A DNA stretch of 64,000 bases from Dehalococcoides mccartyi CG5. GTDB lineage: Bacteria; Chloroflexota; Dehalococcoidia; Dehalococcoidales; Dehalococcoidaceae. Position 1 is the stretch's first letter; each line of letters begins with the position of its first letter. The DNA lies in NCBI RefSeq assembly GCF_000830885.1, contig NZ_CP006951.1:186001-250000 (forward strand), written 5' to 3'. Made by a program: the position numbers and the translations under genes. Positions 6,441 through 47,271 of this stretch are shown here, one piece after another. Below the pieces are notes generated by a model. The model saw only the letters and a program-made list of their open reading frames with translations, was not told the origin of the DNA and searched no databases.

Positions 6441-7913
6441 ATGCAAGGATTCCATTCTGCTTTATCAAGACGAGACTTTATGAAGGGTATTGGGTTGACT
6501 GGCGCAGGTTTTGGTATTGCCGCTGCTACAGCTCCGGTATTCAGAGATTTGGATGAAGGTGCTTCCACAGCCGCTAATACTTACAAGAAAAATCCTTGGT
6601 GGGTCAAAGAGCGCAATTATTGTGATCCTACTACCCCTATAGACTGGGATGTATGGAAACCGTTTGATGCTACTACTTATGACTATATCGGCGGGCAGTA
6701 TTCTGATGAATATTTAGCTCAAATTGGTATACCTTCTGTACTTAATGAAAGTGTAGCAAAGAGGCACGAGCGTATAACTTCTCGTTTGGGTAAACCCGGT
6801 TACTCCATGCAGGACTGGGCTTTTTGCCAGGGAGCCAAAAACGTAACCTCTTCTATGTGCTATAACGAATTTGGTCAGGGTCGGTCAATGTTCCTAGGTG
6901 ACAAGAAAATGATGGATTCCATCATGACTCCGGAACAGATCGGCTTGGCCAAGTACGAAGGTACTCCCGAGTACAATGCCCTTATGCTCAAGAGTGCTAT
7001 CCGCTTCTTTGGTGGTACCGATATCCGGTGTTTACCTGTTGATGACAAGACTAAAAGAGTCCTGAATATTGGTGAAAACCAGCACCCTGACCAGCCTTAT
7101 GTCTGGGAAGACGGCATATCCTGGCCGTATGAAACCAGAACAAAGAGGGCTATTCCGAATCAAGGTGCCCATATTTTGGTATTCAGCTACAACGGTTCGT
7201 ATGACGGCACTGTACGCAGCCCGTCCTGGATATCCAACGGCGTAGCTTTCAATCAGTGTCTTTCCGGTGATGCTATTCAGCTTTATCTCCAGCGTTTTGT
7301 AAAGGGACTGGGTTACTGGCTGGTAGGTGGCGATGATTTCCCCGGTATAGCCAGCTACCCCGGCGCAGGCGCTCTATCCGGTTTCGGAGAAATCGGCCGT
7401 ATAGGTCATGCAGTCGGCTGGGACAAATGGATGCGTTGCACCCGCTTGATGATTACCAATCTGCCTTTGCCAGCTGATAATCCTATCGATTTTGGTGTTG
7501 TGTCATTTTGCACTACCAGCTGTAAGAAATGCGCCGAATTCTGCCCTGTTAGCGCTATCAAAATGGATCAAGAGCCCAGCTGGGAATTAGCAACTGATCC
7601 TTCCAACCCATATTTAAAGCCCCAGAACTTCAACAACCCCGGTAGGAAGACTTGGTATCTGAATCAGGCCGGCTGTTTCTCCAACTGGTGTTTGACCGAT
7701 ACTTTCTGCGGTATTTGTATGGGAGAGTGCGTATTTAACAAGCTGGCTGATTCCAGTATCCATGAGATTGTTAAACCGATTATTGCCAATACCACTTTAC
7801 TGGATGGCTTCTTCTTTAATATGGATAAAGCCTTTGGTTATGGTTGCTTGCCGGAAGACAAGTGGGAAGATTGGTGGACCTTGGGCGAAAAGATGCCCAT
7901 ACATGGTATCTAG
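6441..7913 (+). CDS. rdhA: Reductive dehalogenase catalytic subunit (RdhA)
   Basis: A 490-residue RdhA with a Tat leader (SRRDFMK at 9-15) and the conserved post-leader PWWVKERNYCDP. The first Fe-S motif is CTTSCKKCAEFCP: the first two cysteines are three residues apart rather than two, unlike RdhA1 in this window. The second cluster uses CFSNW and FCGICMGECVF. AGGAGG precedes the ATG by 8 nt. rdhB follows after 38 nt, then an RdhC-like flavoprotein and the corrinoid operon, all on the same strand. The substrate is unknown. It is clearly paralogous to RdhA1 but diverged through the middle of the protein. Confidence 0.97.
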   Translation: MQGFHSALSRRDFMKGIGLTGAGFGIAAATAPVFRDLDEGASTAANTYKKNPWWVKERNYCDPTTPIDWDVWKPFDATTYDYIGGQYSDEYLAQIGIPSVLNESVAKRHERITSRLGKPGYSMQDWAFCQGAKNVTSSMCYNEFGQGRSMFLGDKKMMDSIMTPEQIGLAKYEGTPEYNALMLKSAIRFFGGTDIRCLPVDDKTKRVLNIGENQHPDQPYVWEDGISWPYETRTKRAIPNQGAHILVFSYNGSYDGTVRSPSWISNGVAFNQCLSGDAIQLYLQRFVKGLGYWLVGGDDFPGIASYPGAGALSGFGEIGRIGHAVGWDKWMRCTRLMITNLPLPADNPIDFGVVSFCTTSCKKCAEFCPVSAIKMDQEPSWELATDPSNPYLKPQNFNNPGRKTWYLNQAGCFSNWCLTDTFCGICMGECVFNKLADSSIHEIVKPIIANTTLLDGFFFNMDKAFGYGCLPEDKWEDWWTLGEKMPIHGI

Positions 7914-7951: not shown

Positions 7952-8230
7952 ATGTTTTGGCCTACAGTTATGGTCATTTTGACAATAGCCATTGGTGCGC
8001 TCCTCCTGTGGGGTAAAAATAAAGGTTTGTCATTTAAACTGTATGAATGGTTGCTTTTCATAGCTGGTGTAGCGTTGTTTATTTTTACCCTGGAGAATAT
8101 TCAAGGTAGCTTCCAGGAAAACGTACCCAAAGCTGTTTTGATGTTTGTACTAGTGACCGGTATTCCTTCGATCATTTTACTGGCGATTCCCATGATAGGT
8201 GTATGGAGACGGGGTTCTAGCCGCACCTAA
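7952..8230 (+). CDS. rdhB: Reductive dehalogenase membrane anchor (RdhB)
   Basis: A 92-residue protein with three hydrophobic segments (about 4-20, 32-48 and 60-82) and the family pattern KLYEW after the first segment and a FTLENIQGSFQEN loop. It is expected to anchor RdhA2. The ribosome site, AAAGGA, is rather far from the ATG (about 13 nt). A 13-bp hairpin lies just downstream of the stop. Confidence 0.93.
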   Translation: MFWPTVMVILTIAIGALLLWGKNKGLSFKLYEWLLFIAGVALFIFTLENIQGSFQENVPKAVLMFVLVTGIPSIILLAIPMIGVWRRGSSRT

Positions 8231-9770: not shown

Positions 9771-10526
9771 ATGAAAAAGGCCTTTGTATCCTGGAGTGGA
9801 GGCAAGGACTGTTCATTATCGTTACTAAGGGCGCTGAGGGACGGCTACGAGGTGCAGTGTTTAGCCAGTATGTTTACCGAAGGGACGGGCAGGCTTTACC
9901 CTCATCATTTCACGCCTCAATTACTTGAGAGCCAGGCGGAAGCCATTGGCATACCGCTGGAAATAACCTGGACAAACGGACAGGAGTATACCAGTAACTA
10001 TATCAAGATGCTAAAGCGTTTTAGGGAAGAGGGCATCACGGTTGCCGTGTTCGGGGATGTGAGTGTGGGTAACCCGGACGCTCTGGAGCACCGGATGTGG
10101 GTGGAAAGGGTTTGCCAGGCCGCTGATATGGAAGTACTGCTGCCCTTATGGGATGAAGACCGCGAATCCATAATCGGTGACCTTATAGATTCGGGATTTG
10201 AAACCCTTATTGTAGCCGCCGATGACAGTAAATTAGGCAGGAGCTGGTTGGGCAGGAAACTTGATTATACACTCTTTAATGAACTCAAATCCCTGCACAC
10301 AACTTCACCTGACGGCAAGATAGGGCTTTATCATACCCTGACGGTGGATGGGCCTATCTTCAAAAAGAAGCTGGAGATAGCTGACCGGAAGACCGTTTAC
10401 AAGGAATGCGGCCTATATGACGGCAAACCCACTATAGCTCCGTTCTGGTATCTGGAACTCAGTGATTGTTTTCTGGTTGAGAAGCCGTTGCTGGTTGCAG
10501 AAGATATCGGGGTAGAAACGTCATGA
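9771..10526 (+). CDS. PP-loop ATPase, Dph6/MJ0570-like putative amidoligase
   Basis: A 251-residue protein with the adenine-nucleotide alpha-hydrolase signature SWSGGKD at 8-14. The rest follows the Dph6/MJ0570 family: VFGDVSVGN, HRMWVERVC, LLPLWDEDRE, SWLGRKLD and LYHTLTVDGPIF. Family members adenylate a carboxylate and amidate it with ammonia (diphthine-ammonia ligase in eukaryotes and archaea). Bacteria lack diphthamide, so the target must be different. As first gene of the corrinoid operon, amidation of a corrin side-chain carboxylate is a possible role; this is inference. GGAAGGAGG precedes the ATG, and its stop overlaps the next start (ATGA). Confidence 0.85.
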   Translation: MKKAFVSWSGGKDCSLSLLRALRDGYEVQCLASMFTEGTGRLYPHHFTPQLLESQAEAIGIPLEITWTNGQEYTSNYIKMLKRFREEGITVAVFGDVSVGNPDALEHRMWVERVCQAADMEVLLPLWDEDRESIIGDLIDSGFETLIVAADDSKLGRSWLGRKLDYTLFNELKSLHTTSPDGKIGLYHTLTVDGPIFKKKLEIADRKTVYKECGLYDGKPTIAPFWYLELSDCFLVEKPLLVAEDIGVETS

Positions 10527-11269
10527 AAACTAACATTTACCACATCACCCATACCCCGACTACCGGGAGTGTATCCCTGCGTTTCTGGGGTTGCAACATG
10601 AGTTGTCACGGGTGCCTGTGTAAAGAGGGGATTTATGACCACCTTCTTAAAGAGAACAGGTTCGATAAATTGCTTCAAGCGAAAAATACATCCAAGCCCG
10701 GACGCCTCCTGGAACTGGATGAAGTACTGGCCAGACTGGATGAACTGCAACCCAAAAAGATATTCCTGACCGGAGAAGAGGCCTCTCTTGACCCGAATTA
10801 TGCCGCTATCACCAAAGCGTTCCACCAGCGTTTTAACTGTGAAAATGTTTTGTATACCAATGGCTTTAAGATACCTGAAATTGAAGATACGGATGCAGTT
10901 GAAGTAGGAATCAAGGCTATTTCCGAGGAACTGCACCAGTGGTATACCGAGCGCTCGGTTGAGCCGATAAAACAAAATTTCATCCGCTATGCCCACTCAG
11001 AGGTTAAGCTTACGGCAGCCTCTATACTTATACCCGGTCTGGTAGAAATTGAAGAAATTGAGCGGATAGCTCAATTCATCGCCAGCGTCAACCCGGATAT
11101 TCCTTACTTTGTTTTGCCATACTTTCCGGCCGGTGATAATAACTGGCGCAAGACCAGGCCGGAAGAGGTTGCTGAAGCGGTTGAAAGAGTAAGCCGCTAT
11201 CTGACTAACGTATCCGGCTGCCGGGGTGTTGAACAGGAAATACTCTATGAAGTGGAACGGGTGGTTTAA
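10523..11269 (+). CDS. Radical SAM protein, corrinoid-operon paralogue 1
   Basis: A 248-residue protein with the radical SAM cluster motif WGCNMSCHGC (CxxxCxxC, at about 30-37). It is small and has no SPASM or auxiliary cluster domain, so it is closest in size to pyruvate-formate-lyase-activating enzymes. The usual GGEP strand is replaced by GEEASLDP, a variant shared with two paralogues in this operon (12011 and 13651). LYTNG then marks the next strand. Start and stop overlap or nearly abut both neighbours. The substrate is unknown; the setting implies corrinoid or lower-ligand chemistry, or activation of a glycyl-radical partner that is not seen here. Confidence 0.88.
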   Translation: MKTNIYHITHTPTTGSVSLRFWGCNMSCHGCLCKEGIYDHLLKENRFDKLLQAKNTSKPGRLLELDEVLARLDELQPKKIFLTGEEASLDPNYAAITKAFHQRFNCENVLYTNGFKIPEIEDTDAVEVGIKAISEELHQWYTERSVEPIKQNFIRYAHSEVKLTAASILIPGLVEIEEIERIAQFIASVNPDIPYFVLPYFPAGDNNWRKTRPEEVAEAVERVSRYLTNVSGCRGVEQEILYEVERVV

Positions 11270-11273
11270 AGCC

Positions 11274-11987
11274 ATGACCGGAGCTATTTCCAGAATATAT
11301 TATCCCAAAGTATTCATTACCGGTGTCGGAGCCGGTGGCAGGGCCTTCCTGACACCGGTGGCTGAGGCGGCTGTAAGACGCTGCGGCATTATAACCGCCT
11401 GGGCAGAAGTGATAAAAAGTTTGGGGTTTAGTCTGGAAGGCAAGCTGGTTTTGGAACAAAACTGCACTAACTATCAAGAAGTACTTGTTAAGGCGGCAAA
11501 GCTGGCTCGAACTAAGGGGGAAGACATTGCCCTTTTAGTAAAGGATGACCCTCTGGTGTATTCAGCCGGCCTTGACAGCTACAAAGAGGTTTTTAAAGAC
11601 TTCCGGATTGAATTTATACCGGCTGTTTCCAGTTTGCAGTTGCTGGCGGCCGCTACCCGGGTTTCACTGGAAGATTGCCTGCTGGTAGTCTATAAACCGG
11701 ATGCCGCCGGCAATATTGACCAATCTGATTTAGTCGTAAAGCGGGAGCGTATGTTAAAGGCTTACAAAGCCGGTTACAACCTGATTATCTTGAATGACCT
11801 GGAACAAACTCTGGCCCAGACCGCCGGTTTTTTGATTGAGAGAGGGATACCGGCAGATACAAAGATAATAGTTGGCGAACAGATGGGCACTGAAAGCCAG
11901 AAAATAACCGGAAAAAGTATCTCTGAAGTATCCCGGGGTACCAGCCACTGGATGTCCTGTATGGCGGTAAAACAGCCGGAGTACTAA
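11274..11987 (+). CDS. CbiE-like tetrapyrrole methylase, orphan
   Basis: About 237 residues. KVFITGVGAGGRAFLTP near the N-terminus is the SAM-binding GxGxGG element of the tetrapyrrole methylase family, and the order of strands (LLVKDDPLVY, FIPAVSSLQLLAAA, LIILNDL) fits CbiE, the precorrin-6/cobalt-precorrin-7 C5 methyltransferase. The usual GPG is GAG and several family residues differ. No de novo corrin ring genes (cbiC, D, F, G, H, J, L) occur in the window, so ring methylation by a normal pathway is doubtful. A second CbiE-like domain is fused to a BtuF domain at 19918. The start is ambiguous: ATG 11247 with AGGA upstream is possible. Confidence 0.75.
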   Translation: MTGAISRIYYPKVFITGVGAGGRAFLTPVAEAAVRRCGIITAWAEVIKSLGFSLEGKLVLEQNCTNYQEVLVKAAKLARTKGEDIALLVKDDPLVYSAGLDSYKEVFKDFRIEFIPAVSSLQLLAAATRVSLEDCLLVVYKPDAAGNIDQSDLVVKRERMLKAYKAGYNLIILNDLEQTLAQTAGFLIERGIPADTKIIVGEQMGTESQKITGKSISEVSRGTSHWMSCMAVKQPEY

Positions 11988-12010
11988 AACAGTAAATTGT
12001 GAGGAAAGAT

Positions 12011-12835
12011 ATGACCATCTCCAATCTTAAATATCAGGCTGATTCAACGCCTTGCGGAGATAAGGCAGATATGCAGACCAATGTTTACCACGTTGCCTAT
12101 GCCCCGGCTATCAAAAAGGCTTACCTTTTCCACTGGGGATGCAATCTGGAATGCAAGGGTTGCCTGTGCAAGAAGGAAATAAACTGCATGGCACTGGAGG
12201 AAAATCTGGACGTGGTCTTCCGCGACCCCCGTTTCTGCCCGCCTCAGACACCTTCTGCTACGCTTTCCTTCGGAAAACTTGTTTCCCTGCTGGAGAATAT
12301 AGAGCTTACCGAGGTGGCCTTTGAAGGGCAGGAAGCCTCTCTGGACCCGATGTTGCCGGATATCTGCCGGTGGCTAAAAGACAGAGGCTGCAAGGTTATT
12401 CTGCATACCAACGGGGTGGCCATGGCAGATGCCAGCCATATTGATGACGTGATTGTCAGCCTGAAAGCTATTACTCCTGAACTCTATGCCGGGTACACCT
12501 GCCGTTCCAATGCCAGCCTGCTGGACAACTTTCGGAAATACTACGAATCCGGGGTTAACCTGAAAGCCGAAAGTGTATATATACCGGACTATATAGGTCT
12601 TGAAGAAACCGAAAAAATTGCCAAGTTTATTGCTTCGGTGGATACAAATATTCCCTACCGGATGGATGCCTATTTTGCATCCGGTGACAACCCCTGGCGG
12701 CCGCCTACGCCTGAGGAGATGCAGATTGCTCTGGCGGTTGCCCGCAAGCACCTGAAGAATGTCTACTGCACCCAGCAGACCAAGAAGGACCTAAGCAAAG
12801 CAGACCTGCTGTACGAAGTGGTGCGGCTGTATTAG
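12011..12835 (+). CDS. Radical SAM protein, corrinoid-operon paralogue 2
   Basis: A protein of about 274 residues with WGCNLECKGC (CxxxCxxC), then GQEASLDP and LHTNGV, the same layout as the paralogues at 10523 and 13651. The chosen ATG has GAGGAAAG about 3 nt upstream; ATG 12071 would line up with the N-termini of the paralogues and has AAGG nearby, so the first 20 residues are uncertain. It sits between the CbiE-like gene and CbiZ. The C-terminal half (a conserved ASGDNPWRPPTPEE stretch) matches paralogue 1 (AGDNNWRKTRPEE), so the three came from duplication. Confidence 0.87.
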   Translation: MTISNLKYQADSTPCGDKADMQTNVYHVAYAPAIKKAYLFHWGCNLECKGCLCKKEINCMALEENLDVVFRDPRFCPPQTPSATLSFGKLVSLLENIELTEVAFEGQEASLDPMLPDICRWLKDRGCKVILHTNGVAMADASHIDDVIVSLKAITPELYAGYTCRSNASLLDNFRKYYESGVNLKAESVYIPDYIGLEETEKIAKFIASVDTNIPYRMDAYFASGDNPWRPPTPEEMQIALAVARKHLKNVYCTQQTKKDLSKADLLYEVVRLY

Positions 12836-12865
12836 ATAGCAATATGGAGTAAGGAGATCAAAAAC

Positions 12866-13645
12866 TTGACTACTAAAAGTGAACTTAAAAAAATATCACT
12901 GGGTTCGTTTGAAGGCTTTACTGCCGATACGGTTTATTATACAGCTATTGGGTATCCTAATAATGTTTTTGCCCTTCGGTTTGATGAAATGCGGGATGTC
13001 ATAAGCAGCCGCCACGGTATTATGAAGTCTGATTTTTTAACTATCTGCCATATACCGGACGAGCTGGGTCTTTATATGCATGACCAGAGCAAGAGCCATT
13101 TCTATTATTATGGGCAGCTGCTGGCAGATGTACTGAAAGAATATGACATTGAAATTGAAAACACCGCCTTCCTCTCCACCGGTGTTCAGATGCGTAACCT
13201 GGCCTTTGCGGTGGAAAAGTATGAAGAACTCTGGGTGGCTTGTTTTACCACCGCCGGCGTTCGCCACAATGCAGTTCGGATAGGCAAAGATGCGGCGGTG
13301 GGTATTGAACGCAACGGTGAATTCAAGGGTTTCGGGACTATCTGCCACGTGGTGATTACCAATGCTTCTTTTGACCACGGAGCTTTGGTTTCATCGGTCA
13401 TAACCGTTACCGAGGCCAAAAATGTAGCCCTTCAGGAGATGGATATAAGGAGTTCCCATAATCCGGATTGGCTGGCCACCGGCACCGGGACTGACCAGGT
13501 GATTGTAGCTTCAGGCTTCGGAGAGAAGTGCAAGTATGTGCAGGGGCATACCGTAATAGGCAAGATGATGGCAGATGCGGTTATAAAATCTACCAAAGAA
13601 GCGGTGGCCAACTGTATCCGGGACACGGCCGGCCAGCCTGACTAG
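12866..13645 (+). CDS. cbiZ: Adenosylcobinamide amidohydrolase, CbiZ family (copy 1)
   Basis: A 259-residue protein with family signatures LSTGVQMRNLAF, FTTAGVRHNAVRIG, ITVTEAKNVALQEMDI and ATGTGTDQVIVASG. CbiZ cleaves the aminopropanol side chain of adenosylcobinamide or of complete cobamides to give adenosylcobyric acid, letting the cell replace the lower ligand. That fits a bacterium whose dehalogenases need particular cobamides. The start is TTG with AAGGAG 9 nt upstream. The neighbouring cobA and cbiB would process the product. The copy at 19139 is clearly different in sequence, so the two may prefer different corrinoids. Confidence 0.88.
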   Translation: MTTKSELKKISLGSFEGFTADTVYYTAIGYPNNVFALRFDEMRDVISSRHGIMKSDFLTICHIPDELGLYMHDQSKSHFYYYGQLLADVLKEYDIEIENTAFLSTGVQMRNLAFAVEKYEELWVACFTTAGVRHNAVRIGKDAAVGIERNGEFKGFGTICHVVITNASFDHGALVSSVITVTEAKNVALQEMDIRSSHNPDWLATGTGTDQVIVASGFGEKCKYVQGHTVIGKMMADAVIKSTKEAVANCIRDTAGQPD

Positions 13646-13650
13646 GTAAG

Positions 13651-14391
13651 ATGAATATTTACCAGATTACCTATGAACCGAATTACCGGGTGCTGGGGCT
13701 CCATTTCTGGGGTTGCAACCTTTTTTGCCGCGGCTGTTATAAAAACTACTGGACTGACGACCTTAGTCTGCCCGGCAGTTCGGTAGAACAGCTTAAAGAT
13801 GCCCCCAGAGCGAAAACCCCTGCCATATTTTTAACCCTTGAAGAGGTGCTTGAAAAGACCGAAGGCCTTGCCCCCCGAGATATATTCTTTATGGGCAAGG
13901 AAGCCTCGCTTGACCCCGAACTGCCTCTGCTTGCAGCGAGGCTTCATGCCCGGCACAAAGGTTTTCATACCCTGCTTACCAATGGCGTCAAGCTAACTGA
14001 CCTTTCAGATATAGACGAAGCGGTTTTTGGTTTTAAATCTGCCAGCGAATCTGTCCATCGGGAATATACCGGGTTGTCCAACCTGGGCATAATGAACAAT
14101 TTCAAGAAGGTTTATCAGAACGGTAAAAAACTGCAGGCCGAAATAGCCTTCATTCCCAATCTGGTAGAGGAAGAGGAGATTGGGGCGTTAGCTAAGACTA
14201 TTTCTGAAATAGACCGCAAGATTCTTTTCCGGGTTACCTCGTATTTTGCGGTTCCGGGCGCCCCATGGCCAGCTGCTTCGCGGGAACAGGTGGAAGATGC
14301 GGCAGCGTTTGCCCGCAAATACCTTGATGACGTGGTTACCATGGCTTCAGACAGCCGGGATAACAGCTGGAAGCCGGAAGTAATCTTATAG
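13651..14391 (+). CDS. Radical SAM protein, corrinoid-operon paralogue 3
   Basis: A 246-residue radical SAM protein with WGCNLFCRGC (CxxxCxxC), GKEASLDP and LLTNGV. It lacks the second CxC-type residues (CLCK) that follow the cluster in paralogues 1 and 2; here the sequence is CYKN. It begins 5 nt after the cbiZ stop and ends 8 nt before the RNR-like gene. Repeating radical SAM genes between CbiE-like, CbiZ and RNR-like genes suggests that each works with its neighbour, but the substrates are unknown. Confidence 0.87.
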   Translation: MNIYQITYEPNYRVLGLHFWGCNLFCRGCYKNYWTDDLSLPGSSVEQLKDAPRAKTPAIFLTLEEVLEKTEGLAPRDIFFMGKEASLDPELPLLAARLHARHKGFHTLLTNGVKLTDLSDIDEAVFGFKSASESVHREYTGLSNLGIMNNFKKVYQNGKKLQAEIAFIPNLVEEEEIGALAKTISEIDRKILFRVTSYFAVPGAPWPAASREQVEDAAAFARKYLDDVVTMASDSRDNSWKPEVIL

Positions 14392-14399
14392 GAATAAAT

Positions 14400-16157
14400 A
14401 TGAAACTAAGCGGGAACGCCAAAATAGTACTTGAAAAACGCTACCTGAAACGGGACGGAGACGGGAGTATTACCGAATCCCCGGAGGATATGTTCCGCAG
14501 GGTAGCGGATGCAGTGGCGGCGGCTGAAAATGCTTATAACCAGCAGGGTAAAGCCGCCTGCTGGGCGGACGAATTTTACCGTATGATGACCGGTCTTGAA
14601 TTCCTGCCTAATTCGCCTACCCTCCTTAATGCCGGGCGCGAACTGGGGCTTTTGTCATCCTGCTTTGTTTTACCGGTGGAAGACTCTGTTGAGGGTATCG
14701 CTAAAGCCATCGGTGAAGCTATGATTATCCATCAGTACGGGGGCGGCACCGGCTTTGCCTTTGATACTATAAGACCGGAAGATACCCCGATTAAAAGCGG
14801 ACATAACGTAGCCGGCGGACCGGTCAGACTGGTGGGGGTTTTTTCGGAGGCGGCCAACTATATCAAACAGGCAGGGGTTCGCTGTGGCTGCAATTCGGCC
14901 AGTTTGCCGGTAAATCATCCGGACATCCTGAAATTTATCCGGGCTAAAGATGAGGGTAATCACTCGGCCAATTTTGGCATTAATATAGCCCTGACTGACA
15001 GCTTTATCCAAAAGGTTAGACGCGGGGAGGATTATGAACTGATTAACCCGCGTACAGGGGAAGTTACCGGCAGTTTATCTGCCTCAGACGTTTTTTACCG
15101 CATCGCCCAAAGCGCCTGGGAAACAGGCGACCCGGGTATAATGTTTATTGACCGGATAAATAAAGATAATCCCACCCCGCAGCTTGGGGAATTTGTAACT
15201 ACCGACCCCTGCGGCGGTCAGCCATTACTCCCGTATGAATCAGCTACCTTGGGGACTATAAACCTGTCCCTTATGGCATTGAAAGAGGGTAACTGCTTCG
15301 GGGTAGATTACCTGCGGCTTGGCAAGCTTATTGCCAAAGCTATCCGTTTTCTGGATGACGTGCTGGAAGTAAACCGTTATCCGATACCGGAAGTTGAAAG
15401 AGCGGCTAAAGCCACCCGCAAAATCGGCCTTGGGTTCATGGGCTTTGCTGAAATGCTGATAAAGCTGGGTATCCGCTATGATTCAGAGCAGGCGGTATCT
15501 CTGGCAGATAGGCTTATGACCTTTGTAAATGAAACAGTTAATAAAGCCAGTGAAGAACTGGCACTGGAACGGGGGTCTTTCCCGGCCTTTGCGGGCAATA
15601 TATATGCTAAAAGCGGGGCTAAACCCAGACGAAATGCCACCTGCCTTACATTTACCAATACCGGTACCACCAGTATCATTGCCGATACCTCGGTAGGTAT
15701 CCACCCTATATATTCACTGGTTATGGTGCGCAATATACTGGACGGGCAGCGTCTGCTGGATATCAACCATACTTTTGAAGAAACAGCCCGGGAAAGGGGT
15801 TTTTTCAACCCGGTGCTTATAGAAAAACTGCTGACGGGTGAAAGCCCTCAAAATTGCCCGGAGATACCCCGGGATTACCGCAGGTTGCTGGTTACCGCCC
15901 GGGATATTCAGCCGGAGTGGTGTATAAGGGTACAGGCAGCTTTCCAGAAACATACGGACAACGCTATTTCCCAGACGGTCAATTTTCCTAAATCTGCCAC
16001 GGTTGAGGATATAGCAGAGTTATTCCTGAAATCCCATGAATTGGGACTTAAAGGGGTTACGGCTTATCGGGACAGCAGCCGGGACGTGCAGGTACTCTGC
16101 ACCGGAACAGACTGCCGGGATATAGCCAAACAGTATTTTGAGGATTGCCATGTTTGA
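14400..16157 (+). CDS. Class II ribonucleotide reductase paralogue with altered active site
   Basis: A 585-residue homologue of B12-dependent NrdJ; compare the canonical copy at 44671. The fold is intact: SPTLLNAGRELG, LPVEDSVEGI, GGGTGFAFD, KIGLGFMGFAEML. The active site is not. Canonical NPCGE (Asn393-Cys395-Glu397 in NrdJ here) is DPCGG (Asp269-Cys271-Gly273). The redox cysteine of ESCNLGS is Ala282 (ESATLGT). The phosphate loop IAPTGT is FTNTGT, and RRGANM is RCGCNS. The C-terminal TSCPD domain and zinc ribbon are absent. Ribonucleotide reduction is unlikely. A role as cobamide-binding sensor, carrier or chaperone, or in a new adenosylcobamide reaction, is inferred from the operon. It overlaps cobA. 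Confidence 0.85.
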   Translation: MKLSGNAKIVLEKRYLKRDGDGSITESPEDMFRRVADAVAAAENAYNQQGKAACWADEFYRMMTGLEFLPNSPTLLNAGRELGLLSSCFVLPVEDSVEGIAKAIGEAMIIHQYGGGTGFAFDTIRPEDTPIKSGHNVAGGPVRLVGVFSEAANYIKQAGVRCGCNSASLPVNHPDILKFIRAKDEGNHSANFGINIALTDSFIQKVRRGEDYELINPRTGEVTGSLSASDVFYRIAQSAWETGDPGIMFIDRINKDNPTPQLGEFVTTDPCGGQPLLPYESATLGTINLSLMALKEGNCFGVDYLRLGKLIAKAIRFLDDVLEVNRYPIPEVERAAKATRKIGLGFMGFAEMLIKLGIRYDSEQAVSLADRLMTFVNETVNKASEELALERGSFPAFAGNIYAKSGAKPRRNATCLTFTNTGTTSIIADTSVGIHPIYSLVMVRNILDGQRLLDINHTFEETARERGFFNPVLIEKLLTGESPQNCPEIPRDYRRLLVTARDIQPEWCIRVQAAFQKHTDNAISQTVNFPKSATVEDIAELFLKSHELGLKGVTAYRDSSRDVQVLCTGTDCRDIAKQYFEDCHV

Positions 16158-16689
16158 TATATCGGTTCAAACACAAACCGGTCTGGTACAGGTTTTTTAT
16201 GGTGACGGCCGGGGCAAGACTTCGGCGGCTATGGGTGAGGTCTGGCAGGCAGTTTCGCAGGGTCTTAAAGTCTGTGCGGTTTTCTTTATGAAGGGTAAAC
16301 GCAGGGAGGCGGAATATAATATTCTTGAAAAACTGCAGGTGGAATACACAGTCTTTGGCCGAAGCGGTTTCCTGAGCAGTGCGGATACCCAAGCCGAGGA
16401 TTCTAAACTTTGCCGCCAGGCTTTGGAATTTGCCGAAGGGCAAATACGTTCGGGCAAATGGGATTTGGTGGTGCTGGATGAAATTAACAATGCCCAGTAT
16501 TACGGTTTTATACAAGCTAGAGATATCTTAAAACTTTTATCTGCCAAGCCTGTTGGCACCTCGCTTATCCTTACCGGAAAAGTGGTGGACAAAGCGGTAG
16601 CAGAGGAAGTAAATCTGATAGATGAATGCTGCAAGGTCAAACACCCGTATGACCGGGGTATTCTGGCCCGGCAGGGTATAGACTTTTGA
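16150..16689 (+). CDS. cobA: Corrinoid adenosyltransferase, CobA/CobO/BtuR family
   Basis: A protein of about 179 residues with the P-loop YGDGRGKTSAAMG near the N-terminus and VVLDEINNA (Walker B region), both typical of the BtuR/CobO family. It transfers the adenosyl group of ATP to cob(I)alamin or cobinamide, giving the upper ligand needed by NrdJ and by CbiZ/CbiB substrates. The start at 16150 has GAGG 6 nt upstream and overlaps the RNR-like stop (ATGTTTGA). The length matches the family. Confidence 0.92.
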   Translation: MFDISVQTQTGLVQVFYGDGRGKTSAAMGEVWQAVSQGLKVCAVFFMKGKRREAEYNILEKLQVEYTVFGRSGFLSSADTQAEDSKLCRQALEFAEGQIRSGKWDLVVLDEINNAQYYGFIQARDILKLLSAKPVGTSLILTGKVVDKAVAEEVNLIDECCKVKHPYDRGILARQGIDF

Positions 16690-16705
16690 AGATGAGTAAA
16701 AGCAG

Positions 16706-17662
16706 ATGAACGAATATATTTTGATTTTAGTTCTGGCCGTCCTCTGGGACTTGGCTCTGGCCGAGCCTCCGGCGGCTATTCACCTGACTGTCTGGATAGG
16801 GCGGGTGATTTCGGTGGTAGAGAAAACCGGGCTTAAGATGCGCAGTCACGCCTTGCAGTATATCTTCGGCATGCTGGCCTCGCTCTTCCTGATAGCCCTC
16901 TTCGGCTGGCTTAGCTACTGGCTGCTTGCTTATCTGGGCGGTATCAGTTTTGTACTATACATAATAGCGGCCTTCTTACTGCTTAAGCCTACCTTTTGTT
17001 TTAAATTTAATGCCCGTATGTCTCTGTTGGTGGAAAAGTATCTGAAGGGCGGAGACTACCGGATAGAAAGTGCTGACAAGGAAATCCGCTATCTTTTGAC
17101 AACAGTTGAACGCGAAAAAGGGGATGAGTTTGCCCCGCCCATGATATCCTCTACCATTCGTTCACTCTCGGAAAACGCCTCGGATTTTCTGGTTGCCCCC
17201 CTTTTCTACTTCCTGATTTTGGGTGTACCGGGGGCGGTAGCCTACCGGGTTTCCAATACCCTGGACGGTATGCTGGGGCACAGGGGAGAGTACGAGTATT
17301 TGGGTAAATTTGCCGCCTGCCTGGATGATATACTTAATTACATACCGGCAAGGCTGACCGGACTGATGTTTGTGCTCTCGGCCTTTGTTTCCGGTCTGGA
17401 TGGTAAAAATGCCTGGAAGATGGCACTCAGAGACCAGTCCAAAACTGAAAGCCCCAATGCCGGCTGGCCGATGGCAGCTACCGCCGGTGCTTTGGGAGTC
17501 AGACTTGAGCGGGCCGGCCACTATGCTCTGGGAGACGCTGATAAACCCCTTACAGCAGGTCATATAGGCCAGGCCGTCAGGCTTTTTAGAGTAATGTCCG
17601 CTATTGATATTATTGGCAGTATCGGCATATTGTTTCTGCTATCTTGGGTGAGCCTAAATTAA
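16706..17662 (+). CDS. cbiB: Adenosylcobinamide-phosphate synthase CbiB
   Basis: A 318-residue membrane protein with the family N-terminus (LALAEPPAAIHLTVWIGRVI), several membrane helices (about 5-20, 48-70, 75-95, 160-185 and 295-315) and the SENASDFLVAPLFY and NAGWPMAATAGALGV motifs. CbiB/CobD joins adenosylcobyric acid to aminopropanol phosphate. With CbiZ it forms the hydrolyse-and-rebuild cycle used for cobamide remodelling. It begins 16 nt after cobA. Confidence 0.93.
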   Translation: MNEYILILVLAVLWDLALAEPPAAIHLTVWIGRVISVVEKTGLKMRSHALQYIFGMLASLFLIALFGWLSYWLLAYLGGISFVLYIIAAFLLLKPTFCFKFNARMSLLVEKYLKGGDYRIESADKEIRYLLTTVEREKGDEFAPPMISSTIRSLSENASDFLVAPLFYFLILGVPGAVAYRVSNTLDGMLGHRGEYEYLGKFAACLDDILNYIPARLTGLMFVLSAFVSGLDGKNAWKMALRDQSKTESPNAGWPMAATAGALGVRLERAGHYALGDADKPLTAGHIGQAVRLFRVMSAIDIIGSIGILFLLSWVSLN

Positions 17663-17676
17663 TCGGAGGTGGCTGT

Positions 17677-17937: not shown

Positions 17938-17951
17938 GGCAAAGGAATAAT

Positions 17952-19103
17952 ATGGAAAATATAATTTATCTGGATAATGCCGCCAGTACCTCGGTTGACC
18001 CGCGGGTAGTTGAGGCCATGCTGCCTTATTTTAGTCAATATTACGGCAATCCTTCGGCTATTCACCCCATGGGGCGTCTGGCTGATGAAGCCTTGGAAAC
18101 CGCCCGTGAGCAGGTAGCGAGACTTATTAACTGCCAGCCGGAGGAAATCATCTTTACCAGCGGAGGTACCGAGTCCGACAATCTGGCTATCACCGGGGTC
18201 GCCTCTGCCTGCCGGGGCAATCATATTATTACCTCGGAGATTGAGCATCATGCGGTATTGGAAGCCTGCCATGCCCTTGTAAAAAAAGGCTTTGAGATTA
18301 CCTATCTGCCGGTTGACCGCTCGGGGCAGGTTTCAGCACAGGACTTGCAGGCTGCCATTACGCCCCAAACCGCTCTGGTAAGTATTATGGCAGCCAATAA
18401 TGTAATCGGCACCCTTCAGCCCATAGCTGAGATAGGGGCTATCTGCCGCAAACGGGGTGTATTTTTCCATACCGATGCCGTCCAGATGGCAGGCCACCTA
18501 AGCGTAGATGTAAAGCGGGATAATATAGACCTTTTATCCTTGTCTGGCCACAAGTTTAACGGCCCGAAGGGGGTGGGCATACTTTTTGCCCGAAGTGAAA
18601 TACCTTTGTCACCCCTTATTCTGGGCGGCGGGCAGGAAGCGGGACTGCGCTCGGGTACTGAGAATGTTCCGGGGATTGCGGGATTGGGAGTAGCATCTGA
18701 AATAGCTATGGCTGAAATGGAGTCTGAAGCCAAGCGCCTTTGCAAACTCCGTGATGACCTGATAAACAGGATTCTGGCCGATATTCCAGGCACCTGCCTT
18801 AACGGACACCCGGGAAAGAGATTGCCGAATAATGTGAATATCAGCTTTGAAGGTATAGAGGGCGAATATTTTACCAAAGAGTTGTCCAAACAAGGTATCT
18901 GCGTTTCCACCGGTTCGGCCTGCAGTTCAGAAAGCCACGAAGCACCTTATGTGCTGCTGGCTATCGGACGGGAAAGGAAACTGGCTAACTGTTCAATCCG
19001 CCTGTCTCTGGGGAAGATGACCACTGCTGAGGATGTCAATAAAACAGTGGCTGCTATTTGCTCGGTTGCCGCCAAAATACGCAAGCAAACCAGAGTTTGG
19101 TAA
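17952..19103 (+). CDS. Cysteine desulfurase, NifS/IscS family
   Basis: A 383-residue PLP enzyme that releases sulfur from cysteine. Visible landmarks are IYLDNAASTSVDPRV at the N-terminus, TSGGTESDN, HTDAVQMAG, the PLP-lysine region SLSGHKFNGPKG and the active-site cysteine loop STGSACSS near residue 325. It is the only Fe-S assembly gene seen in the operon. It could supply sulfur for the clusters of the three radical SAM proteins or of RdhA; this is inferred from position. Start AAAGGAATAAT-ATG. Confidence 0.93.
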   Translation: MENIIYLDNAASTSVDPRVVEAMLPYFSQYYGNPSAIHPMGRLADEALETAREQVARLINCQPEEIIFTSGGTESDNLAITGVASACRGNHIITSEIEHHAVLEACHALVKKGFEITYLPVDRSGQVSAQDLQAAITPQTALVSIMAANNVIGTLQPIAEIGAICRKRGVFFHTDAVQMAGHLSVDVKRDNIDLLSLSGHKFNGPKGVGILFARSEIPLSPLILGGGQEAGLRSGTENVPGIAGLGVASEIAMAEMESEAKRLCKLRDDLINRILADIPGTCLNGHPGKRLPNNVNISFEGIEGEYFTKELSKQGICVSTGSACSSESHEAPYVLLAIGRERKLANCSIRLSLGKMTTAEDVNKTVAAICSVAAKIRKQTRVW

Positions 19104-19138
19104 GTATATTTAATTTAAAGCATTTGAGAGATACAAAA

Positions 19139-19921
19139 ATGGCCATCATAAAAGCAAGAGACGTGTGTAAACTGCCCGGGATTAAGGCAGAAGTTCTGGA
19201 TACCCAAGTCTGGGATACCAGAGCCAATGCACTTGTTATACATTTAGACGAATCTCGCCCATGCCTCTCCGGAACTGATGGGTATAATGACATCGGGCTA
19301 ATTTGTAACTGTTACCTGCCCAAAGACCTGTGCGACTATCTCCATTACAGCCACAAAGATTACGGGGATTACTTAAACGACCTGAAGAAAGAAATTGCCT
19401 CATTTTACAGTGTTAATACTAAAGAAATATCCATGATATCCACCGGGGTGGATATGGCTGAACTTAGCTATGCCTTTGAGTCTTATGATAAGCTGTGGGT
19501 GTGTGCTTGGGTTACGGCTGGCTTTAAGCATAATGCCATGCGGATAGGGGTGGATAAGGCTTGCGGGATTGAAATTGAGGGTGAATATCAGCCCTGCGGC
19601 ACTATCAATATAATTGCCGCCAGCAATGCCAAACTTGATTCCGCTACTATGGCCTCAAGCTTTATAACCATAACCGAAGCTAAGATAGTAGCTCTTCAAG
19701 ACCTTGATATCCATAGTTCCTTTAACCCCAAGTTACAGGCAACCGGTACCGGGACTGACCAGATAGTAGTGATTTCCGGTAATGATTTTGTCTGCCGATA
19801 CGCCGGTGGACATACCCGCCTGGGTGAGCTTCTGGCCAAAGCTGTTACCAGTGCCTGCAAAAAAGCCTTTAACCTTCAACTGGCTAAAGACCCCAATTAC
19901 CACTTTGTGAGTGAACAATGA
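19139..19921 (+). CDS. cbiZ: Adenosylcobinamide amidohydrolase, CbiZ family (copy 2)
   Basis: About 260 residues, paralogous to the copy at 12866: ISTGVDMAELSYAF, VTAGFKHNAMRIG, ITITEAKIVALQDLDIHSS and ATGTGTDQIVVISG. The start at 19139 is chosen because upstream codons overlap the nifS-like gene and lack a ribosome site, while GAGAG lies about 9 nt before this ATG. It overlaps the fusion gene at 19918 (ATGA). Two diverged CbiZ copies in one operon suggest that several cobamides are salvaged. Confidence 0.87.
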   Translation: MAIIKARDVCKLPGIKAEVLDTQVWDTRANALVIHLDESRPCLSGTDGYNDIGLICNCYLPKDLCDYLHYSHKDYGDYLNDLKKEIASFYSVNTKEISMISTGVDMAELSYAFESYDKLWVCAWVTAGFKHNAMRIGVDKACGIEIEGEYQPCGTINIIAASNAKLDSATMASSFITITEAKIVALQDLDIHSSFNPKLQATGTGTDQIVVISGNDFVCRYAGGHTRLGELLAKAVTSACKKAFNLQLAKDPNYHFVSEQ

Positions 19922-21477
19922 AGCTAGATTCCAATCAAACCGGCTGCCAGATAACAGACCAAGCCGGACGCAGGATAAACCTTAAAACCATGCCTAAGAG
20001 AATTATTTCTCTGGCACCCAGCTTGACTGAAATTGTTTATGCTATGGGTGCTGACAACCTTCTGTGCGGGGTGACCGAGTACTGTGATTATCCGCCGGAA
20101 GCCCGAAATAAGCCATGGGTAGGCGGTTACAGCACGGTTGACATCGGCCAGATTGGCAAAATACAGCCTGACCTGATACTTACAGGGCAGATACACCTCA
20201 AAGCGGTCATTCCTCAACTGGAGGCACTTGGTTACCCGGTGCTGGTGCTTGAACCAAGTACCATAGAAGGTCTGCTTGCAACTATCCGGATAATCGGGAA
20301 ATGCACGGGTAGACAAGAAGCCGCCGAAGATCTGGTTAGATCACTGCAAAGACGTGCTGGCTTTGTTACTGCCAAAATAGGCTTGTTGCCCACTGAAAGC
20401 CGCCCCAAAGTTTACATACTTCATGAGTGTGAAACGTGGAAAACTTTTGGCTCCGAGACTATCGGTGATACTCTGGTCCATCTGGCCGGGGGGTATAATA
20501 TCGGGCGGGATTTTGGCAGTTATTACCCTTATCCCACTAAAGAGGCTATTAAGCTTAAAAACCCGGAGATTATTATTGCCGAAACCGGTTACGGGGATAA
20601 CCCGCAAGAACCGCTTAGTGTTGCCCTTAATGAACCAGCTTTGGCTCAGGTAACTGCCCGCCAAACAGGGCAGGTCTTCGGTATACATAGCGACCTTGTC
20701 AGCCGGGCAGGCCCCCGAATGGTGGACGGGCTTGAGTGTTTGGCTTGCCTTATTCACCCGGAGTTATTCCCTCAAAAACCGTCCGCTTGCCGTGGCAAGG
20801 TCTACATAGCCGGGGTCGGGCCGGGCTCAGCCGAATGGGTATCTCCCCAAGTTCAAAATCTGGTGGCAAAGGCAGATATACTGGTTGGCTGGGAACAGGA
20901 TTTAAAGCCGGTTCGGAGTTTGATAAAAAACCAAAAGATATTCCTGCAGGAAGCCTGCAACTATCTTGAAATACCCAAGCAGGCGGCAGCTGAGGCTCAG
21001 AAAAACGGGGGCACTGTTGTTGTACTCAAAACCGGTGATCCGCTGGTCGCACCAGCCGGGATTCACGGCATAGCAAATACCTTTGGCGGATTTGAGATGG
21101 AGGTTGTTCCGGGTATAAGCTCGGTTCAGATGGCAGCCGCCAAGGCCTGTTTATCCCTGTATGATGCCGCCGTTATTACCTATCACCCTCTGCCCCATGA
21201 CGGAGGTAAAGACCTGCGCAAGAAACGCAAGCGGATGCTTTCTGCCTTAAGCTGGGGATTGCATCTGATAGTCCTGACCGGCGTCCGCCAGATGCCGGAT
21301 GATACTGCCCTCTATCTGCTTGGCAAAGGCATAGCGGCGGATTCTTCGGTGCTTATTTGTGAAAACCTGACCTACCCCAACGAGAAAATCACTGCATGCT
21401 CTCTGTCCGAAGTAGCTCAAAGGAAGTTTGACTGGCTTTCAGTTATGGTGATTTTTAACAGGTATACTTCGCATTAG
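19918..21477 (+). CDS. BtuF-like corrinoid-binding domain fused to a CbiE-like methylase
   Basis: A 519-residue two-domain protein. Residues about 20-290 resemble the ABC-transporter cobalamin-binding protein BtuF (RIISLAPSLTEIVYAMG, WVGGYSTVDIGQIGKIQPDLI, LGYPVLVLEPSTIEGLL, GPRMVDGLECLA). Residues about 298-519 are a tetrapyrrole methylase of the CbiE type (KVYIAGVGPGSAEW, VVLKTGDPLV, VVPGISSVQMAAA, LIVLTGVRQ). There is no signal peptide or lipobox, so the BtuF domain should be cytoplasmic, unlike normal BtuF. I infer a corrinoid-capturing methylase or a cytosolic corrinoid carrier. It is the last gene of the operon and a strong hairpin follows. Confidence 0.85.
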   Translation: MKLDSNQTGCQITDQAGRRINLKTMPKRIISLAPSLTEIVYAMGADNLLCGVTEYCDYPPEARNKPWVGGYSTVDIGQIGKIQPDLILTGQIHLKAVIPQLEALGYPVLVLEPSTIEGLLATIRIIGKCTGRQEAAEDLVRSLQRRAGFVTAKIGLLPTESRPKVYILHECETWKTFGSETIGDTLVHLAGGYNIGRDFGSYYPYPTKEAIKLKNPEIIIAETGYGDNPQEPLSVALNEPALAQVTARQTGQVFGIHSDLVSRAGPRMVDGLECLACLIHPELFPQKPSACRGKVYIAGVGPGSAEWVSPQVQNLVAKADILVGWEQDLKPVRSLIKNQKIFLQEACNYLEIPKQAAAEAQKNGGTVVVLKTGDPLVAPAGIHGIANTFGGFEMEVVPGISSVQMAAAKACLSLYDAAVITYHPLPHDGGKDLRKKRKRMLSALSWGLHLIVLTGVRQMPDDTALYLLGKGIAADSSVLICENLTYPNEKITACSLSEVAQRKFDWLSVMVIFNRYTSH

Positions 21478-44130: not shown

Positions 44131-44141
44131 TGGAGGGTGAA

Positions 44142-44670: not shown

Positions 44671-47271
44671 ATGGTAAATCACGTAAGCGGTAAGAAACCA
44701 ACTCCGGTTAATCGCAACCGCGTGGCCAGGGCTATGTTTGTAGCTGCGGCCTCAATGGGTATTTCTGATAGAGTCCAGATAGAAACACTTATCAGCCAGC
44801 TTATAAAAAGGCTGGAAAAGCCGGTAGGATTGCCTGGCATGGAAGATTTGTTGCCCAGTGATTTAAAAGCCCCTGCGGTACTGGCCACAGATGATGAGAT
44901 AGATATAATGGTCAAAGAGGTGCTGGACGCAGGTAACAAGGACAAGCAAAATCAAATTGAGACCCAAGCCAAGGAGGAAGAACCGATGCCGGTAAAAGTA
45001 CAAGTTAAATCTGAAATGAAGGCAGATGCCAGAACTGAGGGGCTGAAGCTTACAGATAATGCCATGTGCGTGCTGGAACGCCGCTATCTGAAAAAAGACA
45101 AGCAGGGCAAATCTACCGAAACAGTTGAGGATATGTTTCGCCGGGTTGCCCGCACTATTGCCATGGGGGAGCTTATTTATAACCCCAAGGCAGACGTAAG
45201 AAGCCGTGAAGACGAGTTTTTTAACCTGATGACTCGTCTGGAGTTTCTGCCCAATTCGCCCACCCTTATGAATGCCGGACGTGAGCTAGGGCAGCTTTCA
45301 GCCTGTTTCGTACTGCCGGTAGATGATTCGATAGAGTCTATTTTTGATGCCGTGAAGCACACCGCCATGATACATAAGAGCGGCGGCGGCACCGGTTTCT
45401 CATTCTCCCGCCTGCGTCCAGAACAAGACCGGGTGGGTACTACCGGAGGGGTTGCCAGCGGGCCTGTATCCTTCATGCGTGCCTTTGATGTGGCAACTGA
45501 TGTTATCAAGCAGGGTGGAACCAGAAGGGGCGCCAATATGGCTATCCTGAGTATTGACCACCCTGATATTATGAAATTTGTCCATGCCAAGGATAAAGCC
45601 GGAGTGCTGACTAACTTTAATTTGTCGGTAGCCATTACCGATAAATTTATGCAGGCGGTAAAAGACGGGGTTGATTATGATTTGTTAAACCCCCATAACG
45701 GCGAAGTTGTTTCCAGTCTGAATGCTTCCGAAGTGTTTAACAAGATTGTTCATATGGCTTGGAAGACTGGTGATCCGGGTATTGTCTTTATTGACCGCAT
45801 AAATGCTTACAATCCCACTCCCCAGCTGGGGCGGATTGAAAGCACCAATCCTTGCGGTGAACAGCCTTTGCTGCCTTATGAATCCTGCAACTTGGGGTCA
45901 ATAAACCTGTCACGTATGGTGACTGTAAGCGGAGGCCAAAATACCGTTGATTATAAAAAGCTGAGCCGGGTTATAAAGAGTGCCGTTCGTTTTCTGGATA
46001 ATGTCATAGACGTAAATAAATTCCCCCTGCCTCAGATTGATGAGATGACCAAGAAGAGCCGCAAGATTGGTCTGGGAGTGATGGGTTTTGCGGATATGCT
46101 TTTGGAACTGGGTGTGCCGTACAATTCGGAAAACTCAATAAAGCTGGCAGAGGAGATAATGTGCTTTGTAAATGACGAAGCCCACAAATTCTCGTCAGAA
46201 CTGGCGGTGGAGAGGGGCGTTTTCCCGGCCTATCGCGGGAGTATTTATGAGAAGAGCGGTCGCCCTATGCGGAACGCTTCCTGTACCACCATTGCACCCA
46301 CCGGTACTTTGTCTATTATTGCGGGATGTTCTTCAGGTATTGAACCCCATTTTGCCTTGTGCTTTACCCGCAATATTCTGGACGGAACTAAGCTGATAGA
46401 GGTTAACCCTTATTTTGAGAGGGCGGCTAAAGAAGGCGGATATTATTCCGAGGAGCTTATTAAATCTTTGGCGGAAGGGGCGCATCTGGATGAGGTTGAT
46501 GTGCCGCAGGACGCCAAAGACCTGTTCGTAACCGCCCACCAGATTGTGCCGGAGTGGCATGTGCGCATACAGGCGGCTTTCCAGAAATGCACTGATAACG
46601 CCGTTTCCAAAACAGTAAACTTTTCCCGTGACGCAGGGGAATGTGATGTGGCTGAGGTCTACAAAATGGCTCATGCCCGCAATTTGAAGGGTATTACTAT
46701 CTATCGTGACGGCAGCCGCGAAGACCAGCCTATGTCTACCGGCAAGGCTGAAAATAAAATTGAAACTCCGGCTGTTGCTGTAAACCCGAATTTGATGCCC
46801 CGTAAACGTTCCAAAGTAACCCAGGGTATTACCGAAAGGGTTACTACGGGTTGCGGATATATTTACGTTACTGTAAACTCTGACGAGCATGGAATTTGTG
46901 AGGTGTTTTCCTCACTGGGCAAGGCCGGAGGTTGTGCTTCCGCCCAACTTGAATCCACCTGCCGGCTTATTTCGCTGGCCTTGCGCTCTGGTATGGAAGT
47001 AGCTTCGGTGGTTAAACAGCTTAGAGGTATTCGCTGCCCTTCCATTGCATGGGATGACAGCAAAGCTGTATTAAGCTGTGCTGATGCGATTGCCAGTGTG
47101 CTGGAGAAACATGTAAACGGTTACAGTCAGCCAGTGGCGGCTTCAGCCAAAACCGGGAGTGTAAGCGGGCTGGTCAGGAACATAGCAGGGCAATGCCCTG
47201 AATGCGGCAGTATTCTGGTTTATCAGGAAGGGTGCTTCATTTGCCCCGGTTGCGGTTATACTAAATGTTAA
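44671..47271 (+). CDS. nrdJ: Adenosylcobalamin-dependent class II ribonucleotide reductase
   Basis: An 866-residue enzyme that reduces ribonucleotides using adenosylcobalamin. After about 130 N-terminal residues comes the barrel with SPTLMNAGRELGQLSACFVLP, the catalytic TNPCGEQPL (Asn393, Cys395, Glu397), redox Cys406 in ESCNLGS and the IAPTGTLS loop. Residues about 715-820 match the TSCPD domain, and the end is a zinc ribbon (CPECGSILVYQEGCFICPGCGY). No class I or III enzyme is seen in the window, so B12 supply is essential for dNTP synthesis. Start AAGGAG-ATAAC-ATG. Confidence 0.97.
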   Translation: MVNHVSGKKPTPVNRNRVARAMFVAAASMGISDRVQIETLISQLIKRLEKPVGLPGMEDLLPSDLKAPAVLATDDEIDIMVKEVLDAGNKDKQNQIETQAKEEEPMPVKVQVKSEMKADARTEGLKLTDNAMCVLERRYLKKDKQGKSTETVEDMFRRVARTIAMGELIYNPKADVRSREDEFFNLMTRLEFLPNSPTLMNAGRELGQLSACFVLPVDDSIESIFDAVKHTAMIHKSGGGTGFSFSRLRPEQDRVGTTGGVASGPVSFMRAFDVATDVIKQGGTRRGANMAILSIDHPDIMKFVHAKDKAGVLTNFNLSVAITDKFMQAVKDGVDYDLLNPHNGEVVSSLNASEVFNKIVHMAWKTGDPGIVFIDRINAYNPTPQLGRIESTNPCGEQPLLPYESCNLGSINLSRMVTVSGGQNTVDYKKLSRVIKSAVRFLDNVIDVNKFPLPQIDEMTKKSRKIGLGVMGFADMLLELGVPYNSENSIKLAEEIMCFVNDEAHKFSSELAVERGVFPAYRGSIYEKSGRPMRNASCTTIAPTGTLSIIAGCSSGIEPHFALCFTRNILDGTKLIEVNPYFERAAKEGGYYSEELIKSLAEGAHLDEVDVPQDAKDLFVTAHQIVPEWHVRIQAAFQKCTDNAVSKTVNFSRDAGECDVAEVYKMAHARNLKGITIYRDGSREDQPMSTGKAENKIETPAVAVNPNLMPRKRSKVTQGITERVTTGCGYIYVTVNSDEHGICEVFSSLGKAGGCASAQLESTCRLISLALRSGMEVASVVKQLRGIRCPSIAWDDSKAVLSCADAIASVLEKHVNGYSQPVAASAKTGSVSGLVRNIAGQCPECGSILVYQEGCFICPGCGYTKC

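Follow-up and report, generated by a model that had tools for sequence, protein, structure and literature searches.

Class II ribonucleotide reductases (RNRs) are regarded as DNA-precursor enzymes. Classes O, I and II of the RNRs share the motif NXCXE (PMC9669993), whose Asn, together with the Glu, contacts the substrate in class I and II enzymes (PMC4493059). Class II enzymes use a Cys-rich tail for turnover (PMC5704485), and the beta-hairpin and the betaJ pocket are tied to the cofactor (PMC9531940). RNR mutants without the second redox Cys have been described, in work cited in PMC4493059, as releasing the free base from the nucleotide. With respect to cobamide salvage, the DUF71 family has a predicted B12-salvage branch, and bacterial DUF71-B12 and CbiZ proteins are reported to be anti-correlated; the word ribonucleotide is absent from the paper that describes these modules (PMC3541065). 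A 2026 study of the dcpA island labels an RNR-like gene of the type treated here as an RNR and groups it with replication functions. In the library searched, no paper was found that treats these genes as anything other than RNR genes, or that describes such a family.

The gene considered here is from Dehalococcoides mccartyi CG5 and lies in a stretch of 64,000 nucleotides, termed the window (Table 1). A first-pass annotation had described it as a class II RNR paralogue with a dismantled active site in a corrinoid operon. That description proved too modest: the gene belongs, as a single branch, to a large family with ties to reductive dehalogenases and to a radical SAM partner.

Table 1. Genes of the window discussed in the text (positions within the window)
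Feature	Position	Strand	Basis
Reductive dehalogenase RdhA, upstream of the operon	6441..7913	+	PF13486
RdhB-like membrane anchor	7952..8230	+	inferred from position and hydrophobicity
DUF71/Dph6-like PP-loop ATPase	9771..10526	+	profile search
Radical SAM protein, second of the same family	10523..11269	+	
CbiE-like tetrapyrrole methylase, under the CbiE equivalog cut-off	11226..11987	+	
Radical SAM protein, third of the same family	11999..12835	+	
CbiZ-family adenosylcobinamide amidohydrolase	12866..13645	+	
Radical SAM protein (CX3CX2C), directly upstream of the RNR-like gene	13651..14391	+	
Group A class II RNR-like protein, 585 aa	14400..16157	+	ORF call, Pfam, alignment
CobA/CobO ATP:corrinoid adenosyltransferase, 20 bp overlap with the RNR-like gene	16138..16689	+	
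CobD/CbiB-like protein	16706..17662	+	family assigned from sequence, inference
NifS-like cysteine desulfurase	17952..19103	+	assigned from sequence, inference
Second CbiZ-family protein	19058..19921	+	
BtuF-like corrinoid-binding protein fused to a CbiE-like domain	19918..21477	+	assigned from sequence, inference
Canonical NrdJ, 866 aa, reference; presumably the genome's working RNR	44671..47271	+	

The home operon

The RNR-like gene is part of a tight, co-directional run of genes (9771–21477) with gaps of at most 30 bp and an rdhA–rdhB pair upstream. The order is that of Table 1, with a small ORF between the CobD/CbiB-like and NifS-like genes. The gene is placed between a radical SAM gene and cobA, as the first reading had it, and its ATG is 8 bp past the end of the radical SAM ORF. 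DUF71 and CbiZ genes are found together in this run, an apparent exception to the reported anti-correlation. CbiE-like methylase domains persist at two places in the salvage operon, and one appears to be fused to a BtuF-like domain. There is no Rfam cobalamin riboswitch match at gathering score in the window or in 13 related loci, and none at a relaxed threshold between positions 5000 and 22500. Matches in a promoter and terminator consensus scan were not above those in shuffles.

The radical SAM protein encoded directly upstream has a weak profile match to pyruvate formate-lyase activase (E 4e-6), its nearest solved relative, and scores far below cut-off with all NCBIfam activase profiles. 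In a PADLOC search for an anti-phage link, the RNR-like protein had no match and the radical SAM gene gave a marginal viperin-like score only.

Sequence and structure of the group A protein

The product of the RNR-like gene, here assigned to group A, is about half identical to the canonical NrdJ of the same window. Pfam detects the RNR all-alpha and barrel domains only (PF00317, PF02867). The canonical protein displays in addition a TSCPD domain and a weak zinc-ribbon match, and its gene is directly preceded by an nrdR-like gene (44127–44669). The barrel and the N-terminal helical domain are also evident from structure matching. An AlphaFold2 model (pLDDT 88.8, pTM 0.92) has Thermotoga maritima NrdJ as its best PDB match (Z 47, 2.0 Å), and the matches to this enzyme, which include adenosylcobalamin complexes, have Z values of 44–47 and deviations of 1.7–2.4 Å over ∼540 residues. 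Thus, the claims of the first-pass annotation that the class II fold is kept and that the TSCPD and zinc-ribbon domains are absent both hold.

The active site is extensively altered, and all substitutions originally claimed relative to the canonical gene are present in the alignment. In the finger loop, NPCGE is changed to D269-P-C271-G-G273, and the protein therefore carries DPCGG where NXCXE is expected. Cys271, the radical (thiyl) Cys of class II RNRs, is kept, also as claimed. The sequence ESCNLGS around the second redox Cys reads ESA282TLGT, with Ala at position 282 in all group A members; the redox Cys pair of betaA and betaF is thus incomplete, the first Cys (C88) being retained. The distal phosphate loop APTGT is changed to T419-N-T-G-T. 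Loop 2 reads KQAGVRCGC in place of the canonical KQGGTRRGA, which replaces an Arg by C162 and an Ala by C164, and C508 is found where canonical NrdJ has an invariant His. Altogether, group A differs in 37 of the 157 columns that are invariant among 18 canonical NrdJ proteins.

At the C-terminus, the Cys-rich/TSCPD domain is missing and a C567-X4-C572 motif is conserved within group A. The tail sequence, LCTGTDCRDIAKQYFEDCHV, has no glycyl radical motif; a tail Gly present in group B is Cys in group A and Ala in most of group C. Profile scores are divided. The group A protein is above cut-off with the TIGR02504 NrdJ profile, and scores 775.6 with the NCBIfam equivalog for B12-dependent RNR (PRK08665, cut-off 961), compared with 1297.8 for the canonical NrdJ of the same genome.

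A family of short NrdJ paralogues

The CG5 genome (1.36 Mb, one contig) has three RNR barrel genes: canonical nrdJ, the group A gene and a paralogue of 599 aa with an SGCGE motif, located at 475.4–477.1 kb just behind a radical SAM gene. A class-wide search, combined with the signature pattern [KR]Q[AG]G[VI]RxGC[NS]-x7-HPDI, reveals short paralogues in 11 of 11 Dehalococcoidaceae genomes, with 1–9 per genome; together with those of a few other Dehalococcoidales, the family has more than 40 members. The pattern, which misses divergent members such as L116–L118, also detects short paralogues in three other Dehalococcoidales genomes, and four more genomes with an RNR-like gene were found via the radical SAM gene. 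When 84,980 species genomes were scanned with the signature, near genomes being left out, there were two further matches, both in Dehalococcoidia MAGs; the family is therefore not a general RNR variant. Canonical NrdJ is present in each Dehalococcoidaceae genome where examined.

The paralogues fall into groups by finger loop: A has DPCGG, B1 mostly TGCGE, B2 SGCGE, C TGCAE and D SGCGEQPLLPNEF, and group E is divergent. Certain changes are common to the whole family. The Asn of NXCXE is replaced by D, T, S or C, and the loop-2 Ala by Cys, in 42 of 42 paralogues and in none of 22 canonical NrdJ proteins; the radical Cys is kept in all 42. Other losses are scattered, and none is seen in the 22 canonical proteins. 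The Glu of NXCXE is lost in group A alone, the first redox Cys in group D, and the second in group A and some members of B1, D and E. Nearly every member still has the PNSP loop, which binds diphosphate, and group A is the only group in which APTGT is not retained. In the beta-hairpin and betaJ segments, similarity to NrdJ is about that found among the canonical enzymes; the finger loop and loop 2 are remodelled.

All short paralogues form one clade beside the Dehalococcoidales NrdJ (SH-aLRT 99), in which group A is the most derived branch, on a long stem; the trees are from quick searches without bootstrap. The same substitutions are shared by four of four distinct group A orthologues (67–87% identity). 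The dN/dS of the group A gene relative to a sister species is 0.11 and that of other members 0.04–0.10, with 0.04 for nrdJ as measured on another genome pair. The shared changes, together with the dN/dS of 0.11, indicate that the substitutions did not arise by chance. Two group B copies have a single in-frame stop each (L060, just before position 7607; L045, just above 7353), one in place of a conserved Trp and one in place of a conserved Tyr; these are either recent pseudogenes or sequencing errors.

A decaying nrdJ duplicate might be suspected from these stops and from the lost catalytic residues, but this is scarcely credible and is ruled out by the dN/dS value and by motif conservation: the motif is identical in all orthologues, the radical Cys and Cys164 are invariant, and no sister homologue with intact NPCGE and second Cys was found.

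Genomic neighbourhoods

The surroundings of the group A gene are conserved, with a radical SAM gene directly upstream in five of five group A loci. Across the 42 paralogues, the gene directly upstream encodes a radical SAM protein in 11 cases, a DUF71 gene adjoins in seven, and an rdhA gene is found within three genes downstream in 16. Group D members are in cbiZ–cobD–cobA operons. Group B2 genes follow a radical SAM gene and have btuFCD as neighbours in some genomes; group C genes mostly follow DUF71. For the most part, group B1 genes precede rdhA, and a small DUF2795 protein is often encoded with them. An nrdR motif accompanies canonical nrdJ in 7/8 loci and RNR-like genes in 0/46.

Dehalococcoidaceae genomes have many rdhA genes, and adjacency to RNR-like genes is therefore partly expected. 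Among the rdhA matches listed, at least 11 of 39 RNR-like copies are within 5 kb of rdhA, compared with 2.9 expected, and none of 20,000 random draws was as high; within 3 kb, at least five are found among these matches versus 1.9 expected, a modest excess. RNR-like genes co-occur with rdhA in 17 of 18 genomes, compared with 17 of the 138 genomes without an RNR-like gene, and in 6/7 versus 17/138 when the home family is excluded (p 5e-5); these counts ignore kinship.

The radical SAM gene is directly upstream in groups A and B2 and in the divergent relatives. As a query on its own, the radical SAM protein is found in 23 of 156 genomes of the order, including all 14 with the signature. Among the nine further genomes, four (L116, L117, L118, L120) have a divergent RNR-like gene directly downstream, and two of these loci are rdhA–rdhB–radical SAM–RNR-like operons; in one genome (G216), the rdhA of this operon is the only rdhA detected. 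In L119 and L122 the contigs end directly after the radical SAM gene, and in L121, L123 and L124/L125 the gene is in btu or other cobamide/radical SAM clusters with no RNR-like gene. The radical SAM family is present in 18/18 genomes with an RNR-like gene and in 5/138 without, counts which ignore kinship and in which 4 of the 18 were found via the radical SAM protein itself.

Several loci point to mobility. Two genomes (G068, G223) have a group B1 gene directly upstream of an rdhA of 1,449 bp, a length reported for dcpA (2026 study), and a third such RNR-like gene precedes an rdhA of 482 aa (G178). If the two genomes are strains IP3-3 and NSZ-14, their B1 genes would sit inside the mobile dcpA island as delimited by its published coordinates. 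Two other genomes, of different species (G189, G049), share an RNR-like/rdhA locus with 98% identity over 13 kb; an RNR-like gene and rdhA can thus move together. Loci L042 and L113 of G068 and G223, which are Dehalogenimonas-like species, have 100% identity over 15.1 kb that comprise the whole group A cobamide-salvage region. This suggests a recent transfer of the salvage operon itself, like that of the dcpA island.

Other genes recur in these clusters. Small DUF2795 proteins of two flavours are found around RNR-like genes upstream of rdhA, sometimes on both sides (L040, L043, L047, L057, L059, L109). Near RNR-like genes in L040 (12–1523), L045, L049, L053 and L112 there is a radical SAM protein that ends in a PqqD (peptide-recognition) domain, which hints that peptide modification may take place in some of these clusters. 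Divergent to a dcpA-linked RNR-like gene (L044, 9450–11820) are a histidine kinase whose N-terminal part resembles DUF1638 and, next to it, a small protein that has no Pfam match and looks like a B12-binding fold. The two are a possible candidate for a corrinoid sensor pair.

Proposed role and alternatives

A role other than that of an RNR, and a link to the cobamide/dehalogenase system, are both well supported. The RNR-like proteins are very probably not RNRs, and it is probable that they serve the cobamide/dehalogenase system. That they retain radical chemistry is slightly favoured, judging from the residues conserved. The reading preferred here, to which about an even chance is given, is that Dehalococcoidales have a family of RNR-derived barrel proteins, with the group A gene as its most derived branch, that are non-reducing and serve the cobamide/reductive-dehalogenase system.

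The barrel would still bind adenosylcobamide, and a thiyl radical would be generated on Cys271. The loss of the Asn and of the C-terminal reductase domain throughout the family, and of the Glu or one or both redox Cys in several branches, points to redox-neutral work and not reduction; the scattered pattern of the latter losses argues that two-electron reduction is no longer the task. The fixed radical Cys argues against mere cobamide binding. Together, the conserved cofactor segments, the remodelled substrate-side loops and the motif losses favour an adenosylcobamide-dependent radical role. The redox-neutral work may be cleavage of the Co–C bond to give an upper-ligand-free cobamide or, alternatively, the rearrangement or cleavage of a nucleotide-like portion of some cobamide precursor. 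Reductive dehalogenases would be the next to receive the cofactor, and the activase-like radical SAM protein is a likely ancestral partner. By analogy with the RNR mutants in which loss of the second redox Cys leads to release of free base, group A might also cleave a nucleotide or ribazole. Two features speak against the preferred reading: PNSP is retained in nearly all members and APTGT outside group A, so that nucleotide binding may persist, and group A has the CX4C pair in its tail.

A more ambitious proposal, possible but given clearly less than an even chance, is that the RNR-like and radical SAM proteins make up a cofactor maturation system hitherto missing for the reductive dehalogenases of Dehalococcoidia, with dedicated copies for single dehalogenases. 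In this proposal, a lineage of B12-dependent reductases would have become a radical enzyme that no longer reduces and whose task is to prepare the cobamide or insert it. Removal of the upper ligand before cobamide insertion, as the specific step, is a more doubtful suggestion still.

The radical might have another origin. The radical SAM protein could make the Cys271 thiyl radical from S-adenosylmethionine, sparing scarce adenosylcobamide, and the pair would then catalyse a novel radical reaction, for instance one that modifies RdhA or a cobamide precursor. This suggestion is unlikely. The upstream position of the radical SAM gene in basal lineages and in groups A and B2, its presence in all 18 genomes with an RNR-like gene, and the relatedness to pyruvate formate-lyase activase, whose target has a related barrel fold, are consistent with a cofactor swap. 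However, the tail is not of the glycyl-radical type, the cofactor-linked class II segments are kept and, for most rdhA-linked B1 copies, the gene directly upstream is not a radical SAM gene. Radical SAM genes that stand in cobamide operons lacking an RNR-like gene (L121, L123, L126–L131) count against both the cofactor swap and the preferred reading. A glycyl radical enzyme as such is ruled out, there being no glycyl motif.

The first-pass annotation had suggested a cobamide sensor or carrier as well as a new radical reaction, and the latter has fared better. Retention of the radical Cys in every paralogue, though binding would not need it, and the lack of any fused DNA-binding or signalling domain in Pfam searches make it improbable that the protein is a non-catalytic carrier, chaperone or sensor that keeps the cofactor pocket only and regulates or feeds the linked rdhA and salvage genes, even if salvage, transport and two-component genes are nearby and the RNR catalytic residues are lost.

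There is very little likelihood that the protein is a still functional, unusual RNR or a back-up copy with altered use of reductant. The PNSP loop, the CX4C tail of group A, the TIGR02504 score and the replication-associated label of the 2026 study are in its favour. Against these are the family-wide loss of the Asn and, in group A, of the Glu and second Cys; the missing Cys-rich reductase domain and the low PRK08665 score; and the absence of nrdR nearby, with canonical NrdJ kept where examined.

Significance

A large clade that is under purifying selection with its RNR chemistry lost and its radical Cys intact would demonstrate recruitment of the RNR barrel to a different radical function. 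The genes are also a directly testable candidate for how the reductive dehalogenases of Dehalococcoidia obtain their cobamide, since they travel with dcpA and other rdhA genes under the label 'RNR, DNA replication'. The question of cobamide supply bears on the making of pollutant-degrading dehalogenases in other hosts. RNR copy counts in these genomes are probably affected by misannotation.

Comparison with known systems

Dimeric class II NrdJ, represented by the T. maritima enzyme (1XJE, 3O0O) and by the canonical NrdJ of the window, has in common with group A the barrel, the N-terminal helical domain, the radical Cys, the first redox Cys, the PNSP loop and the beta-hairpin. In contrast to these enzymes, group A has neither the Asn and Glu of NXCXE, nor the second redox Cys, nor the TSCPD and zinc-ribbon tail; its phosphate loop and loop 2 are changed, and its gene has no nrdR neighbour and is in a cobamide/dehalogenase operon. 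As both the finger-loop motif and the redox pair depart from those of class II RNRs, the protein should not be annotated as an RNR.

The DUF71-B12 and CbiZ salvage modules are found in the same operons as group A, and DUF71-type genes also adjoin group C, but their proteins are unrelated to the RNR-like protein. Glycyl radical enzymes and class III RNRs (pyruvate formate-lyase and its activase; NrdD/NrdG) are alike in having a related barrel, a radical Cys and an activase-like radical SAM neighbour, and formate-type NrdD likewise keeps the betaA Cys alone of the redox pair and has no Glu. Group A differs from them in its lack of a glycyl motif, in a finger loop that is not MGCR or MCCR, and in its class II descent. 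On these sequence comparisons, the closest functional parallel to the group A protein would appear to be a radical barrel enzyme that has an activase-like protein encoded next to it.
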